From NCBI GenBank assembly GCA_028681135.1, contig JAQUJC010000003.1, positions 1-64,000 of the forward strand: 64,000 nt of DNA, given 5' to 3'. The position numbers and the translations under genes were made by a program. Shown here piece after piece: positions 138-7,073 of the stretch; positions within the stretch are counted from its first letter, which is position 1, and every line of letters starts with the position of its first letter. The notes under the pieces were generated by a model. The model saw nothing but the letters and a program-made list of their open reading frames with translations. It did no database searches and had not been told where the DNA came from. The stretch is from Kiritimatiellia bacterium. Its GTDB lineage: Bacteria; Verrucomicrobiota; Kiritimatiellia; CAIQIC01; Lenti-01.

Positions 138-617
138 TCAGGCGTCAGGCCTCACGCTCGCCGCTGGCCGCTCGACTGTCACGCGCCGGGACTCGTCTCC
201 CGCCGCCCCCTCAGCCAGGCGCACATGCCAGCAGTCCTCCGGCATCAATTCCCCCAGCCGCTCCGCCCACTCGATGGCCACCACCCCGTCGAAATGCTCC
301 AGATAGTCTTCCAGCCCCAGCCCAAAGGCATCCGCCGCGCCCCGTAGGCGATAGAGATCAATATGCGCCAATCCCCGCCGCCCCCGATATTCATTGATCA
401 ACGTAAACGTCGGACTCCCCACCGGCCGCCGCACCCCCAACGCCTTGGCCAATCCCTGCACAAAACACGTTTTCCCCGCCCCCAAATCACCATGCAGACA
501 CACCACCGCTCCATCCGGCACTTCAGCCGCCAGCCGTGCCGCCACCGCCTGCGTTTCTGCGGCCGATGTCGTCTCCATCTGCTCCGGTCCATCTGTCACA
601 GTTTCACACGTTCCCAC
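138..617 (-). CDS. tsaE: tRNA threonylcarbamoyladenosine biosynthesis ATPase TsaE
   Basis: TsaE is the P-loop ATPase that works with TsaB and TsaD to make t6A37 on ANN-decoding tRNAs in the cytoplasm. The 159-aa protein has Walker A GDLGAGKT at residues 43-50, the family motif SPTFTLINEY at about 68-77, HIDLYR at 85-90 and EWAER at 116-120. The length is typical. The second Met (residue 14, position 578) is an equally plausible start, since alignable sequence begins near residue 15. It is the last gene of the leftward run and is separated from the transporter upstream by about 180 bp, so it may have its own promoter. Confidence 0.93.
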   Translation of the reverse strand: MGTCETVTDGPEQMETTSAAETQAVAARLAAEVPDGAVVCLHGDLGAGKTCFVQGLAKALGVRRPVGSPTFTLINEYRGRRGLAHIDLYRLRGAADAFGLGLEDYLEHFDGVVAIEWAERLGELMPEDCWHVRLAEGAAGDESRRVTVERPAASVRPDA

Positions 618-797: not shown

Positions 798-3374
798 TTA
801 GTCGTCGTCGCACTCCTGGAGACGCGTCTCGTAAATCTCGGGATCGACGAGTCGTTGCTGCTCGGCCAATGGCGCCATCTCCACCTTCTTGCCCAATTTC
901 GAGTGCTTGACCCAGAACTGCGGCTTCATTTCGACGAGGGCGATGCTCTTGCAGTGCTTCATGATCCGGTCAAGCGTTCCGATATAATCGCTCAAGTAAA
1001 TGCCCGCGATCGGCGTAATCAACCGTTGGGACACCTTGTCAACATACAGCGCGCGCGTACGTTGGCTGGTCTTGATGTAGTCTTCCCGGATTTGCAAAAT
1101 CTGCTGAGCCGCCGCCTGGAAGTCCTTCTGATCCGGGTCAAGCGAATCAATAATCATCTTGAAAAGACGAAACGCGGTTTCATAGAGCTGGAAGAGCATA
1201 TCGAACGATTCCGGATCCACAATGGCCTCGGGAATCTTTTGCCGACGCAGGGACAAATCGCAGATTGTATCGATGTGATCGCCAATGCGTTCAAGGTCGG
1301 ACATGCAACGGTCGATATATTGGATGAGCACGGCCTGGCGCTTGGAGAGATAGCGCTTGGTGAGATTGCCTAAGTAGTTTTTTACCGCCAGCTTGATTTC
1401 GTTGATCGCCTTTTCATTCAGCTTGATGGTGTGGACCTCCTGCGTTGTGTGCGCGAACAGAATGGTCTGGCCAGCAAGGCGCTGACTCACGGCACAAATA
1501 CGGGCGACGCGTTGGAGTTCACGGATGCTGGCATAGATGGCCTTCTCAGGATAATCCAGCAAATCGGGAAGGAGATAGGAGGGTTCAGGGGGCGGGGTTC
1601 GGGAGGGCACAACCTTGCGGATGAACCGAGCGTAAATGGGCACAATTGGCATGAAGACACAGCAGTTTTGGATCATGAGGAGGGTGTGGGTGTTGGCAAT
1701 CTGCCGCACCACATCGGGCGAGGTGGCCGCAAAGAGCGGAATCCATAGCGGCGCGAGTAAAATGGAGACAATTGCATTGAAGACATTGGTCAGCAAATTC
1801 GCCACTGCGGCACGGCGCGCCTCGATGCTGGCACCAATCGACCCCAGCAAGGCCGTGGCGCACGTGCCAATCTGCGCACCGATCACAATGGGATACACCT
1901 GCCAGAGCGAGTCGAACACGCCCGCCGTTGTCAGCGCAAAGCTCATGCCGATGGTCGCCCCGCTGCTTTGAATAATGGCGGTCAAGCCAAAGGCGAGCCC
2001 GGCACCCAGCAGGCGCCCGGAGAAGGTGTGGCCGTCAATGCCCACCATGAATTGCCGAAGTAAATCGCGATGCGGGGCTATGGCATCACTCATGGTTTTC
2101 ATGCCCAGAAACAACAGGCCAAACCCGATCAGGACGCGCCCCATCGCCTTGGCCCGCGGGTTGGGAATCGCCATTTGGGTGATGATGCCGATGGCAATGA
2201 CCGTAAAGCAGTAGTCCGTTAAGCGGAAGGACACCAGTTGCATGGACAAGGAGGTGCCGAGATTGGTCCCCAGCATCGGCGCAATCGCCTGCGGCAAACT
2301 CATCAGCCCCGCATTGATAAAGCCCACCAGCATCACGGAGGCCGCCGAGGAGTGAATCAAGGCCCCCATCGTTGTGCCAAGCGCCAATCCCGAAAATCGA
2401 TTGGTGGTGGCCTTGGACAACATCGTCCGCAAGCCATTCCCTGCCACAATGCGCAGGCTTTCGGACATGATATTCATGCCAAAAATAAACAGGCCCAGGC
2501 CGCCCAGAACCTGGAAGACCAAGAAAAACAGTTGTTGGGGTCCCAGGCGGCCCAGATCGGCCGATACAAAGCCGATCGATTTTACGATATCCTGCCCGCC
2601 CGCGGCTCCCACAAACCGGATAAAGCGTTCGGTTGCCGGGTGACAGGGTTCAACGCGGGAATACAGCAGGATGGGTTCCACATAGGGGTATAAGCCTTCA
2701 CGCACGGTGGCATCGCTAGGGGAGACCCCGTTAACAGACAGAGGATTCAGGTCGGGACGGCTCATGAAATTCATGCCGACATACCCGATGGCATTGGGGT
2801 GGGCGGCGAGGTCGTCCGCTAAAGCCGCATAATTGGCAAAGGTGCGAGCTGAACGCGTATAGGCACTGTTGCCCATGGCCAGCCGCCGGAATCCCAGATG
2901 GGTACCACCCGTCGCATCTCGAATGAGCACCTCGATGCGGCGGTCAGGGCCCCCCACCTGTTTCCAGTTCTGGATTCGCCCGGTAAAGATATCGCGAATG
3001 GCGTGATCCGAGAGATTCTTCAGCGGGTTTTGCGCGTTGACGACCACGGCCACGCCATAATAGCCGCCGATGGCCGACTTCAGGGCAATACCGCGGGAGC
3101 GGGCAATACGCAGCTCATCGTCATTGAACAAGCGCGACGAAACGGCGATGTCGCTGGTGTCCTCTAACAAGGCCGCAATCCCCGAGGTCGAACCCAGTCG
3201 GCTCAGTTCAACGTCGACCGTTGGCTCCTCCTCCTGGAATGCCGCGATCAGCCGCGGGCCCAGTTCTTCGCCAAACGTATCGGAGCCCCGAATCAACAGC
3301 CGGTCGTCGGCATGGGCGACAACCGCCGCCATAATCCAAAAGCCCGCCACAATCCATTTGATCTGTTTTTTCAT
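798..3374 (-). CDS. PstS-like / Na+-phosphate cotransporter (NptA) / PhoU-like fusion
   Basis: Three modules lie in one 858-aa chain. A signal peptide (1-22) leads into a PstS-type phosphate-binding domain (about 23-272), with RGSDT at 29-33, the phosphate-loop region GSTSG at 61-65 and ATGGTH at 154-159. A polytopic NptA/PNaS domain follows (about 280-585), with the two inverted QSS-type repeats IHSSAAS (340-346) and IQSSGATIG (468-476). The last module is a PhoU-like helical domain (about 600-830). NptA-PhoU is a normal arrangement. The fused periplasmic binding protein is unusual, because such proteins normally serve ABC transporters. The likely role is phosphate uptake or sensing. The start is chosen for the signal peptide. 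It lies 14 bp downstream of the VWA gene and is probably cotranscribed with it. Confidence 0.85.
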   Translation of the reverse strand: MKKQIKWIVAGFWIMAAVVAHADDRLLIRGSDTFGEELGPRLIAAFQEEEPTVDVELSRLGSTSGIAALLEDTSDIAVSSRLFNDDELRIARSRGIALKSAIGGYYGVAVVVNAQNPLKNLSDHAIRDIFTGRIQNWKQVGGPDRRIEVLIRDATGGTHLGFRRLAMGNSAYTRSARTFANYAALADDLAAHPNAIGYVGMNFMSRPDLNPLSVNGVSPSDATVREGLYPYVEPILLYSRVEPCHPATERFIRFVGAAGGQDIVKSIGFVSADLGRLGPQQLFFLVFQVLGGLGLFIFGMNIMSESLRIVAGNGLRTMLSKATTNRFSGLALGTTMGALIHSSAASVMLVGFINAGLMSLPQAIAPMLGTNLGTSLSMQLVSFRLTDYCFTVIAIGIITQMAIPNPRAKAMGRVLIGFGLLFLGMKTMSDAIAPHRDLLRQFMVGIDGHTFSGRLLGAGLAFGLTAIIQSSGATIGMSFALTTAGVFDSLWQVYPIVIGAQIGTCATALLGSIGASIEARRAAVANLLTNVFNAIVSILLAPLWIPLFAATSPDVVRQIANTHTLLMIQNCCVFMPIVPIYARFIRKVVPSRTPPPEPSYLLPDLLDYPEKAIYASIRELQRVARICAVSQRLAGQTILFAHTTQEVHTIKLNEKAINEIKLAVKNYLGNLTKRYLSKRQAVLIQYIDRCMSDLERIGDHIDTICDLSLRRQKIPEAIVDPESFDMLFQLYETAFRLFKMIIDSLDPDQKDFQAAAQQILQIREDYIKTSQRTRALYVDKVSQRLITPIAGIYLSDYIGTLDRIMKHCKSIALVEMKPQFWVKHSKLGKKVEMAPLAEQQRLVDPEIYETRLQECDDD

Positions 3375-3388
3375 AGTCTCCGGCGGGG

Positions 3389-5149
3389 TTACATGGGGAA
3401 GTCAGCGCCGTAAGGTAACGGCACGTTATGACGGAGGGATAAGTCGCGAATTTTGCGTAACGTATCGTCGCGGCCGCTGGCGAGATGGTCATTGATCAGG
3501 GTATAGATTTTCTGGGCGACCCATTCGCGGCGAATGCCCTCGCCACCATCTTCCGCCGCGGACAAATCCAGAGCAAACACCATGTCACGCCGAGCGGCCC
3601 CGGAGTCGCCAATGACGTGCAGCACAGCCGTTTTTTGTCCCAGGGGGGCGCGGCCCACCAACCGGAGCGGGCGATCAAGAAATAGATGCGTCAGTGTGCC
3701 GGGATACACTTCCGCCTCGGAATCGCTGGAAAACCGATAGGTGAGATTCGCCAGAACGGGCCGCGACAGTTCACGCGCGGCGCGTTGGACCGTGGCGGGG
3801 ATGTGCTCGCGCAACGGCATCAGCCACGACCCGCCGCGGTTATTGTGGCCCAACAAGTCGAGCAGGAAGGTATTGACGCGCGCGCCCGCGCCGACCGTAA
3901 ACACCGATACGCGCCCATTATTGAGACGGCTAAAGCGCGCGATGATGTCGGAACTATCCACCGCCCCCATGGTGGGACGTCCGTCGGTCATCAGCACGGC
4001 AATCATGGGCCGTCCGCTGGGTTGATGGAGCTTCAGCAGCCGCTGGAGGGGCGTGAACAGATCGGTTTGACCACGGGCCCGCATGGCATCGGTGAACTGC
4101 ACCGCCTCGGCGAGTGCATCGGCCGTGACCGGTGCCCAGTCATCAAAACACAGGGTCGGGGCATCGCTATAGCGCATCAGATTGACACGGTCGGCGGTGG
4201 TTAGCGTCCGAAGATAGCCAACAATGCCCTCTTTGAAAAAATCGAGCTTCGTGCGAGTGATGCTTTCGGAACAATCTTGAATCAAGAGGATATCCTTCGG
4301 CAGCACCGGCAGCCCTTCCATGCCGGCGCGGGAGATGGCGAGTTCAAAATACAGCGCGTCTTCTTCGGTGGCCGGGTAGGTCGTGACCTCGACGGCCAGC
4401 AACTGCTCGATCGGCTCGACATCTGTAACGTCGGCCGGGGTTTCATCGAGCACCTTGCCCTGTTCACGAATGCGCTCGGCCTCGGAGAAATCGTCCTGTT
4501 GAGCGGCCGCGATCATGGCGGCGGCCGGCGGCGCCGCATGAGTCAGCACCGACAGCGGCCGCACGGCGGCAGCCGCTGAACCATCGGCAGCCGCGGCCGC
4601 CGCCGCAGCGGCAATGGCCTCGGAATCCGCCGGCAGGGTGATGTCAGGCGCACCATCCAACCGCGGCAGAGCCGGCACCACGCGCCGCGGGAGTGCCTGA
4701 AGTTCGACGGCGGCGGTCTGCTGCTCGATCTGCAGTATTTCCTGGCGCCAATCCATGGTCGGCCAATCTGTCTCGGGCTGTGGGGGGGGGGCCTCCGCAG
4801 GGCCCGGCGCCACAAAGGCGGTCGCGTCGGCACCCGCACGCAGATTCTCGAGCAAACTTTTCTGGAGCGATTCGACCTCGGCAAAGGCCTCGGGATTTTC
4901 GGGGCGGAAGGCTTCGGGTTGGATAAAGCGGGACAGATCGGGGGCGGGTCGGACCTCGTCCATAACCAAGGGACGCGTCGGATTCAGATCGGCCCCTCGG
5001 AAACGCTCGACCGGGAAGATCGGCAACCCGGCAAGCAACAGACCATGCAGCGCCAGAGAAATAACCAGCGCCACCCCGAAGAGGGTGGCGCGGGCCCAGG
5101 CCTGACGCGCCTCCCGACTGGCACGCCTATTTCGATCCATCACGCTCAT
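3389..5149 (-). CDS. Membrane-anchored von Willebrand factor A domain protein
   Basis: This 586-aa protein has one N-terminal membrane helix (about 22-44) after a basic cytoplasmic stretch. A Pro/Ala-rich linker follows, including an alanine run near 180-195. The VWA domain is at about 285-450. Its MIDAS motif DCSES (292-296) fits DxSxS, and MTDGRPT supplies the later loop, so metal-dependent ligand binding is plausible. The ligand is unknown. It may be an extracytoplasmic adhesion or assembly factor. A 10-G run at 4782-4791 encodes prolines in the linker. The gene sits between rho and the phosphate transporter with very short gaps. Confidence 0.8.
   Translation of the reverse strand: MSVMDRNRRASREARQAWARATLFGVALVISLALHGLLLAGLPIFPVERFRGADLNPTRPLVMDEVRPAPDLSRFIQPEAFRPENPEAFAEVESLQKSLLENLRAGADATAFVAPGPAEAPPPQPETDWPTMDWRQEILQIEQQTAAVELQALPRRVVPALPRLDGAPDITLPADSEAIAAAAAAAAADGSAAAAVRPLSVLTHAAPPAAAMIAAAQQDDFSEAERIREQGKVLDETPADVTDVEPIEQLLAVEVTTYPATEEDALYFELAISRAGMEGLPVLPKDILLIQDCSESITRTKLDFFKEGIVGYLRTLTTADRVNLMRYSDAPTLCFDDWAPVTADALAEAVQFTDAMRARGQTDLFTPLQRLLKLHQPSGRPMIAVLMTDGRPTMGAVDSSDIIARFSRLNNGRVSVFTVGAGARVNTFLLDLLGHNNRGGSWLMPLREHIPATVQRAARELSRPVLANLTYRFSSDSEAEVYPGTLTHLFLDRPLRLVGRAPLGQKTAVLHVIGDSGAARRDMVFALDLSAAEDGGEGIRREWVAQKIYTLINDHLASGRDDTLRKIRDLSLRHNVPLPYGADFPM
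4782..4791. repeat. G10 homopolymer inside the VWA gene
   Basis: A run of ten G on the plus strand encodes consecutive Pro codons in the linker of the VWA protein. It is a potential slippage site and equally a potential sequencing-error site. The frame is open as given. Confidence 0.8.
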
Positions 5150-5156
5150 GGATGCA

Positions 5157-7073
5157 TTATCCCTGCAATGTCATCAAAAATTCAAGGTTGTTCTTTGTTT
5201 TCTTGAGACGACCAATCAACAATTCCATCGCCTCGACCGCCGGGACCCCATTGAGGGCCTTGCGTAGAATCCAGACGCGGCTCAGTTCGTCCTTGTGCAT
5301 CAACAGCTCTTCCTTGCGGGTGCCGGACTTTTCGATATTGATGGCGGGGAAGATGCGCTTATCCACGAGATAGCGATCGAGGCAGATTTCCATATTCCCG
5401 GTGCCTTTGAACTCCTCGAAGATCACTTCATCCATGCGGCTGCCGGTATCGACCAGGGCCGTGGCAATGATGGTCAGGCTGCCGCCGCCCTCGATGTTGC
5501 GCGCCGCGCCAAAAAAGCGCTTAGGTTTGTGCAGCGCATTGGCATCGACACCGCCGGAGAGGATTTTGCCGCTATGGGGCTGGAGGGTGTTGTAGGCCCG
5601 CGCCAGACGGGTGATCGAGTCGAGCAGGATCACCACATGATGGCCAGCCTCGACCTGGCGCTTGGCCATTTCGATAACCAGATCGGCGATCTGGACATGG
5701 CGCTCGGGCGGCTCATCAAAGGTCGAGGCCACCACTTCGGCCTGGGTCGTGCGCTCCATGTCGGTCACTTCCTCGGGACGTTCGTCGATCAGCAGGATCA
5801 TCAACTTCACCTCGGGATTATTTTCCGAGATGCTGTTGGCCATCATCTGCATCAGGACGGTTTTACCGGTCCGCGGCGGCGCAACGATCAGGCCGCGCTG
5901 GCCCTTGCCAATCGGCGTGAGGATGTCCATCACCCGCATATTGATATTGTTCTTACTTTTCGTTTCCAGCACCAGGCGCTCATCGGGAAAGAGCGGGGTC
6001 AGGTTTTCGAAGGGAATCTTGCCCCGCTGGCCTTCGGGGGGGCCATCGTTGATCGTAATGACCCGCTTCAAAGCAAAGAATCGTTCCTTGTCCTTGGGCG
6101 AGCGGATTTCGCCTTCGACCAGGTCACCGGTGCGCAGGGCAAAGCGGCGCACTTGCGACGGCGAGACATAGATGTCGTCCGGACACGGCAGATAGTTGTT
6201 GTTCGGCGAACGCAAGAAGCCGAAGTTGTCGGGCAGAATCTCGAGGATTCCGCGAACGAACATCGTGCCATTACAGCGCGCATTGGCCTTGAGGATTTCG
6301 AAGATCAGCTCATGTTTTTTGAGCGCGCCGAGTTCCACCAGTTTATAGACGTCGGCCAATTCCTTAAGTTGCGGCACGGTGAGTTGCTGCAACTCATTGA
6401 GCTTAAGCACGCGGGCGAGTTTGGCGCGTTCGGCGGCCGCGGCCTCGGCGGCGGCACGTGCCGCGGCCTGCTGGGCAGCGCGGGCCTCCTCTTCTTCCGG
6501 CGTCAGGGGTACACGCGGGGGACGGTTTTGCTGCTGCCCGCCGTGACGACGGTCGCGATTGCGATCGAAGCGCCGGTCAGAGCGTCCGCCTTGGGTCTGG
6601 TTCCGTGGTCGGCGGCTGGGGCCATTCTGCGGCCTACGTTCACCCGTCTGCTCCTGCTCCTCCTGCGGCGGCGAGGAAGACGGCGGCGCCGGATTTTTTT
6701 CGACGGGCGGGGTCTCCTTGTCGCCGGATGCAGCAGGCGGCGTGTCGTGGGCGCGAGCCTCGGCAGGCGGGGTGTTCTTGTCGCTGGGTGTGGCGGCTGG
6801 TGGTGCCGCGGGTGCCTTGTCGCTCGTTTCTGCGGGCGTCGCCTTTGCCGCCGGGGCCTTCTGGGCCGGCTTGGCATTGGCGCCCGGATGGTATTCCTCG
6901 CCATCGGCGATGGTGGTCTCCAGCAAGGACGCCGGCAGCGGCATGGGGTCCTTGCGCTTCGGGGCCTCGTCGTCGCGCGTCTTGCGTGGACGGCCGCGAC
7001 GCGCACCGGTTTTGGCCGCGGGTTTCGCGGGGGATTGACGGGGTTTACGCGCTGGTTTGGGATCAGTGGCCAT
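5157..7073 (-). CDS. rho: Transcription termination factor Rho with long disordered N-terminus
   Basis: Rho is the hexameric RNA-dependent ATPase that terminates transcription. At 638 aa it is about 200 aa longer than the E. coli protein. Residues 1-215 are low complexity: Lys/Pro/Ala-rich, then an Arg/Asn/Gln-rich stretch at about 146-187, then an Ala-rich helix. The Rho_N domain follows (about 224-265). The cold-shock-like RNA-binding domain is at about 272-345 and contains NFGFLRSP. The RecA-like motor has Walker A APPRTGKT (398-405), LIDERPEEV and [11 protein letters not shown]. It is 2 bp from coaE upstream, so the two are probably cotranscribed. N-terminal insertions of this kind occur in several phyla. 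Confidence 0.96.

Follow-up and report, generated by a model that had tools for sequence, protein, structure and literature searches.

A PstS–Na+/phosphate cotransporter–PhoU fusion in Kiritimatiellia, a candidate binding-protein-dependent secondary transporter for phosphate

Introduction

To our knowledge, before 2025 TRAP and TTT were the only families known in which a substrate-binding protein is paired with a secondary transporter. TRAP systems transport only with their binding protein (PMC9971032), and their membrane subunits have the DASS fold of VcINDY (PMC12344293), which is also the fold on which NaPi-II has been modelled (PMC6325988). The TAXI-GltS systems, described in 2025, couple a binding protein to a Na+ symporter or carry it as an N-terminal fusion, and a hand-over has been proposed for them; the authors consider that elevator transporters suit coupling to binding proteins and call for further classes (PMC12344293). 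Phosphate transporters that end in a PhoU domain are common in bacteria, and a survey of 926 genomes distinguished three types of NptA, namely those that have PhoU, those that lack it and the Vibrio type (PMC13170248). We found no PstS-NptA-PhoU fusion in the open-access literature.

Here we describe such a fusion in a Kiritimatiellia bacterium (assembly GCA_028681135.1). It lies in the first 64,000 nucleotides of contig JAQUJC010000003.1, the stretch that was analysed and that we refer to as the window.

Architecture of the fusion

The gene is a single intact reading frame running from an ATG at 3374 to a stop ending at 798, with no internal stops (Table 1). The first-pass annotation had placed a phosphate-binding protein, a Na+/phosphate cotransporter and PhoU on this one chain, and the domain search bears this out, the coordinates being exact. 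In the first part PBP_like_2 of Pfam (PF12849) matches residues 20-255 (1e-27) and PstS_2 of NCBIfam, the short PstS (TIGR02136), residues 25-271 (7.5e-49). Na_Pi_cotrans (PF02690) follows in two stretches, the best covering residues 295-429 (6e-46; 156 bits against a cut-off of 29.1), and Na_Pi_symport (NF037997) scores 149.8 bits against a cut-off of 50. The matches to PhoU are weak: that of PF01895, at residues 643-706 (1.8e-4), reaches 22.3 bits against a gathering score of 23.5, and that of phoU_full (TIGR02135), at residues 649-812 (4e-7), is far under the equivalog cut-off.

By sequence the nearest solved structures to the head are the PstS proteins 4gd5 (2.5e-25), 4q8r and 1twy, while those nearest to the core are the vertebrate SLC34 structures 9z60/9z64 (6e-8). 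An AlphaFold2 model built from 36 relatives (mean pLDDT 87.5, pTM 0.67) is confident for all three domains. Foldseek matches the first domain of the model to PstS structures, with a TM-score by target of 0.84 for 1twy, and residues 609-815 form a helical bundle at the position of PhoU. The signal peptide, which is absent from the first-pass annotation, was identified by inspection as MKKQIKWIVAGFWIMAAVVAHA-DD at the N terminus of the 858-residue chain, and a start of the form MK...W is common to all five fusions known to us (see below).

The fusion is preceded in the window by a von Willebrand A domain gene and by Rho. In L083, a locus from another family of the class, a related von Willebrand A gene and rho adjoin a NaPi-PhoU gene (L083:1141-6135), these two lying there on the opposite strand. 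Since this neighbourhood is found both at 3389-7073 of the window and in a different family, it may be old.

Table 1. Features of the fusion gene and its neighbours, in coordinates of the window
Feature	Position	Strand	Evidence
Whole gene, 858 aa: signal peptide, PstS, Na/Pi cotransporter core and PhoU	798..3374	-	Single open frame; Pfam and NCBIfam domains; four homologues sharing this architecture
Predicted Sec signal peptide, residues 1-22 (AHA|DD)	3309..3374	-	MKK, hydrophobic stretch and A-x-A; hydropathy peak 4-22
PstS-type phosphate-binding domain, residues 23-271	2562..3308	-	PF12849, TIGR02136, PDB 4gd5, E. coli PstS residue mapping, Foldseek 1twy
Short linker, residues 272-281, immediately before TM1	2532..2561	-	Junction alignment of five fusions
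Na/Pi cotransporter core, residues 282-588, two repeats and a seventh TM helix	1611..2531	-	PF02690, NF037997, SLC34 structures, AF2 helices
Repeat 1 QSS-equivalent motif, HSS, residues 341-343	2346..2354	-	Alignment
Repeat 2 QSS motif, residues 469-471	1962..1970	-	Alignment
PhoU domain, residues 603-815	930..1568	-	TIGR02135, PF01895, helical bundle in AF2 model
von Willebrand A domain protein, upstream neighbour, 14 bases away (context only)	3389..5149	-	PF00092 1e-12
TsaE, downstream neighbour (context only)	138..617	-	PF02367 8e-39

Distribution of the fusion

Across 346 genomes of the class, which is rich in NptA-PhoU transporters, scoring was limited to the two best candidates of each genome; a strong match was found in 92 genomes, and the head was spanned in five only. 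The search for the same architecture elsewhere that the first-pass annotation had proposed thus added four genomes, all from the family of the window genome, with identities to the window chain of 64% (G016), 59% (G015), 58% (G013) and 48% (G011). A related PstS is present in 113 of 388 genomes sampled from the phylum and is fused in members of this family only. Of the 80 top-ranking relatives found for the PstS head in 84,980 species, just two carry the fusion, both already known. A scan of viral contigs with the head returned one distant relative and nothing else, and the fusion was not found in plasmids or phages at a coverage of at least 80%.

An open frame of this kind could be an artefact arising from a frameshift, a chimeric contig or the misassembly of tandem paralogues. 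Tandem NaPi-PhoU copies do occur in relatives, and the assemblies, of which the publicly named ones are metagenome-assembled, are fragmented. The in-frame join is, however, common to five separate assemblies, which rules out the frameshift or assembly join that had been named as a possible objection, and the window copy could not have been stitched together from other fusions as the DNA of its head differs by ~20-50% from every other. Furthermore, third codon positions are the most variable in PstS, linker, NaPi and PhoU alike, which fits one coding gene under constraint. We consider that an artefact has next to no chance of being the explanation; the architecture is real, conserved and rare.

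Topology and proposed mechanism

In the AlphaFold2 model the two repeats are followed by a further long helix before PhoU, which we read as seven crossings, an odd number. The charges on the loops were compared over 41 homologues: those that would be inside if the N terminus is outside carry a mean of 12.6 Lys and Arg against 3.0 Asp and Glu, while those that would then be outside carry 4.4 against 4.3. Taken with the signal peptide, the loop charges suggest that the PstS head is periplasmic and PhoU cytoplasmic. The N and C termini of vertebrate SLC34 proteins are on the other hand described as cytoplasmic (PMC6325988). This opposes the N-out orientation that a periplasmic head requires and that the loop charges favour, and the topology assigned here is tentative.

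The explanation that we prefer, and that seems to us somewhat more likely than not, is a one-chain, binding-protein-dependent Na+/phosphate importer. The signal peptide would export the chain such that the PstS domain lies in the periplasm, tethered by some ten residues to TM1 of a sodium-driven transporter of the NptA/NaPi-II type. There the head would catch phosphate and, when docked on the transporter, free it into the outward-open site, with the sodium gradient powering uptake. The cytoplasmic PhoU domain would throttle the transporter or signal the phosphate status. We infer the periplasmic position of the head, the hand-over, the direction of transport and the control by PhoU. The transporter as such does not need the head, since it occurs headless in the closest relatives.

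Phosphate-binding residues and transporter motifs

The residues of E. coli PstS that interact with phosphate, which from its structures we take to be Thr10, Phe11, Ser38, Asp56, Arg135, Ser139, Gly140 and Thr141, were mapped onto the head. Loss of such residues had been raised as a second objection to the reading of the first domain, and six of the eight positions are kept: Thr10, Phe11, Ser38, Arg135, Gly140 and Thr141 correspond to Thr33, Phe34, Ser62, Arg152, Gly157 and Thr158. Asp56 is replaced by Ser80, a change also seen in the pst-operon PstS of relatives, and the position is serine or threonine in all five heads. Ser139 is replaced by Gly156; here glycine or alanine is found in every fused head and in the free PstS adjoining the G016 fusion, while serine is kept in the pst-operon and ExbBD-linked PstS proteins that were compared. 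With both positions altered in all five heads, the affinity of the head may be lowered.

In the transporter core the alignment shows GTNLGT and GAQIGT in addition to the HSS and QSS motifs. Histidine in place of glutamine in repeat 1 is usual across the class in fused and unfused proteins alike, and the loss of this glutamine is not a hallmark of the fusion.

The altered ligands could also give the weaker affinity of a sensor. The PstS domain would then sense phosphate and gate the transporter, or signal through PhoU, with no delivery of substrate. A PhoU domain on the same chain and a PhoB-like regulator in the genome would suit such a role, but none of the genes adjoining the fusion in the window encodes a partner kinase, and for binding proteins joined to secondary transporters the precedent, in TAXI-GltS and TRAP, is delivery. 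We regard a pure sensor as unlikely and retain the importer.

The Pst importer and other phosphate genes

In the window genome, which is 94% complete, no match to PstA was found, and the best hit to PstB, at 167 bits, stays below the family cut-off of 343. Both are missing in 16 of the 17 genomes of the family, including all five carriers, though some of these genomes are incomplete. The exception is G007, in which no fusion was found. Outside the family, 34 of 39 relatives have a match to PstA. The Pst ABC importer has thus apparently been lost in these genomes, and the fusion would replace PstSCAB for high-affinity phosphate uptake in a lineage that had lost it. As all carriers belong to one family, the association between the fusion and the loss of Pst is confounded by kinship.

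The fusion is the only NaPi transporter of the window genome and its only match to PhoU. YjbB, a relative with the NaPi-PhoU layout, reportedly promotes the export of phosphate (PMC11389368), and the chain could by analogy be an exporter, a safety valve with an accessory binding domain in the periplasm. An external binding protein, however, makes no obvious sense for export, and the sole other candidate for phosphate uptake in the genome is a distant transporter of the Pit type. Export therefore appears to us highly improbable as the function of the protein.

Arsenic genes near some of the fusions

In two of the carriers the fusion lies downstream of genes for an arsenite methyltransferase and ACR3. 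The order in G016 is ArsM, ACR3, free PstS, DsbD_TM protein and fusion, and in G015 it is ArsM, ACR3, DsbD_TM protein, fusion and NaPi-PhoU; the corresponding slot in G007 and G010 is taken by an unfused NaPi-PhoU. At one locus (L046:6766-11158) a free PstS and a PstS-NaPi-PhoU fusion are found in one apparent arsenic operon with just a DsbD_TM (CcdA/ArsG-like) gene between them. In the ars locus of the window genome itself (contig C112, L103:8128-11849) the frame of an ArsC-like phosphatase runs into numerous copies of a short dispersed repeat and an apparent REP-associated transposase, with ACR3 coming next.

This context raises a variant of the importer in which the tethered head serves selectivity, mainly admitting phosphate and keeping arsenate out as part of arsenic resistance. 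The pst genes are frequent in arsenic islands (PMC3834237), and there is a precedent in a Pst1-like protein that, according to a passage of the same paper citing Elias et al. 2012, discriminates phosphate over arsenate 500-850-fold (PMC3834237). The fusions of the window, G013 and G011, on the other hand, have no ars genes adjoining, the ACR3 of the window genome is on another contig, and the linkage is restricted to one genus. Unfused transporters are also found in ars operons, so the link may belong to the transporter body. Selectivity as the main purpose of the head is possible, and we would hold it only tentatively. With ars genes beside some carriers and the window fusion outside such a context, it is plausible that in some members of the family, though not in general, the fusion has a part in taking up phosphate under stress from arsenate.

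One head on three transporter bodies

In the tree the heads of all five fusions group as a single clade (support 97/95), and its sister is the free PstS encoded next to the G016 fusion. The ExbBD-linked PstS proteins of sister lineages are related yet lie outside the fused clade, and an origin of the head from them was rejected. The fused transporter bodies, by comparison, are split over three clades with unfused members alongside. The cores of the window and G016 fusions cluster with unfused proteins of G010, G001, G014, G013 and G015, those of the G013 and G015 fusions with an unfused protein of G007, and that of G011 falls in a third clade. Constraining the five fused cores to one clade was rejected (AU p = 7.5e-5), and with it, for the transporter part, a single origin and vertical descent of the whole chain; constraining only the window and G016 cores together was not rejected (p-AU 0.17).

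A comparison of the G016 and G015 fusions gives a view of how this may have come about. Late in the head they are up to 97-100% identical, while after TM1 identity falls to ~50-65%, and from there the G016 fusion is 97-100% identical to the unfused gene directly downstream of the G015 fusion. The switch around TM1 is abrupt in the identity profiles. The simplest reading, made from the sequences, is that recombination within TM1 between tandem paralogues put the head on a new body. Misjoined paralogues could imitate one such swap but hardly all three clades.

It would be conceivable that the fusion arose by chance and has no functional coupling, the transporter merely anchoring the head or acting alone, as close unfused transporters exist and some are in tandem with a fusion. 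However, the heads and the bodies of all five are under coding constraint and the head has been retained through the exchanges of body. It is as if the head were useful on different bodies. We therefore consider a chance fusion to be very unlikely and a coupled importer to be the better account.

Other features of these gene families were seen in the class. NaPi-PhoU paralogues are repeatedly found in tandem, two or three at a time (L047:188-4669, L048:1308-7734, L057:7439-11008), and seem to swap parts. In G008 the homology of a clade A NaPi protein (L059:8129-9418) ends after the core with no match to PhoU, and the gene is possibly truncated or rearranged. In two genomes from the same taxonomic order, standalone PstS relatives of the head are immediately followed by ExbB, ExbD and a further large open reading frame (L060:4160-6302, L074:7977-10038), as if a phosphate-binding protein were working with an energising complex driven by the proton-motive force.

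Discussion

The description that fits the protein best is that of a candidate secondary transporter for phosphate that depends on a binding protein. In the first-pass reading the architecture and the tethering of a binding protein to a secondary transporter are supported by domain, structure, homologue and genome-context evidence, while the capture, transport and regulation by one protein is a proposal; the NptA-PhoU half is a common bacterial NptA/YjbB-type protein, and the new element is the PstS head alone. If the head feeds the transporter, the fusion would add to an uncommon class of uptake systems whose known members, until a short time ago, all served nutrients other than phosphate. It suggests that a lineage losing its ATP-driven phosphate importer may retain a binding protein by joining it to a transporter driven by sodium. 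As the system is one gene, and close bodies exist with and without a head, the effect of the head should be directly measurable.

With PstS of PstSCAB (TIGR02136) the head has in common the fold, the export signal and most of the phosphate ligands. It differs in being joined to a secondary transporter, in a genome where PstA and PstB were not found, in the changes of Ser139 to glycine and Asp56 to serine, and in forming a clade of its own apart from the pst-operon PstS proteins. The rest of the chain shares with NptA of S. aureus and YjbB of E. coli the PF02690 core, the two repeats, the QSS-type motifs and the C-terminal PhoU, here weakly matched, though the known NptA types are without the N-terminal PstS domain. 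TRAP systems such as SiaPQM are similar in that a binding protein feeds a sodium-driven transporter, and their membrane subunit is VcINDY-like, the fold used to model NaPi-II; they differ in having separate subunits, in transporting organic acids and in showing no sequence relation. TAXI-GltS has an unrelated binding protein and an unrelated transporter family, carries glutamate rather than phosphate and has no PhoU. It resembles the fusion in placing an N-terminal binding protein on a sodium-driven symporter, and in being rare and concentrated in one bacterial family. The fusion is thus a candidate in which a binding protein unrelated to those of the known cases is combined with a transporter family modelled on the VcINDY fold that TRAP membrane subunits share.
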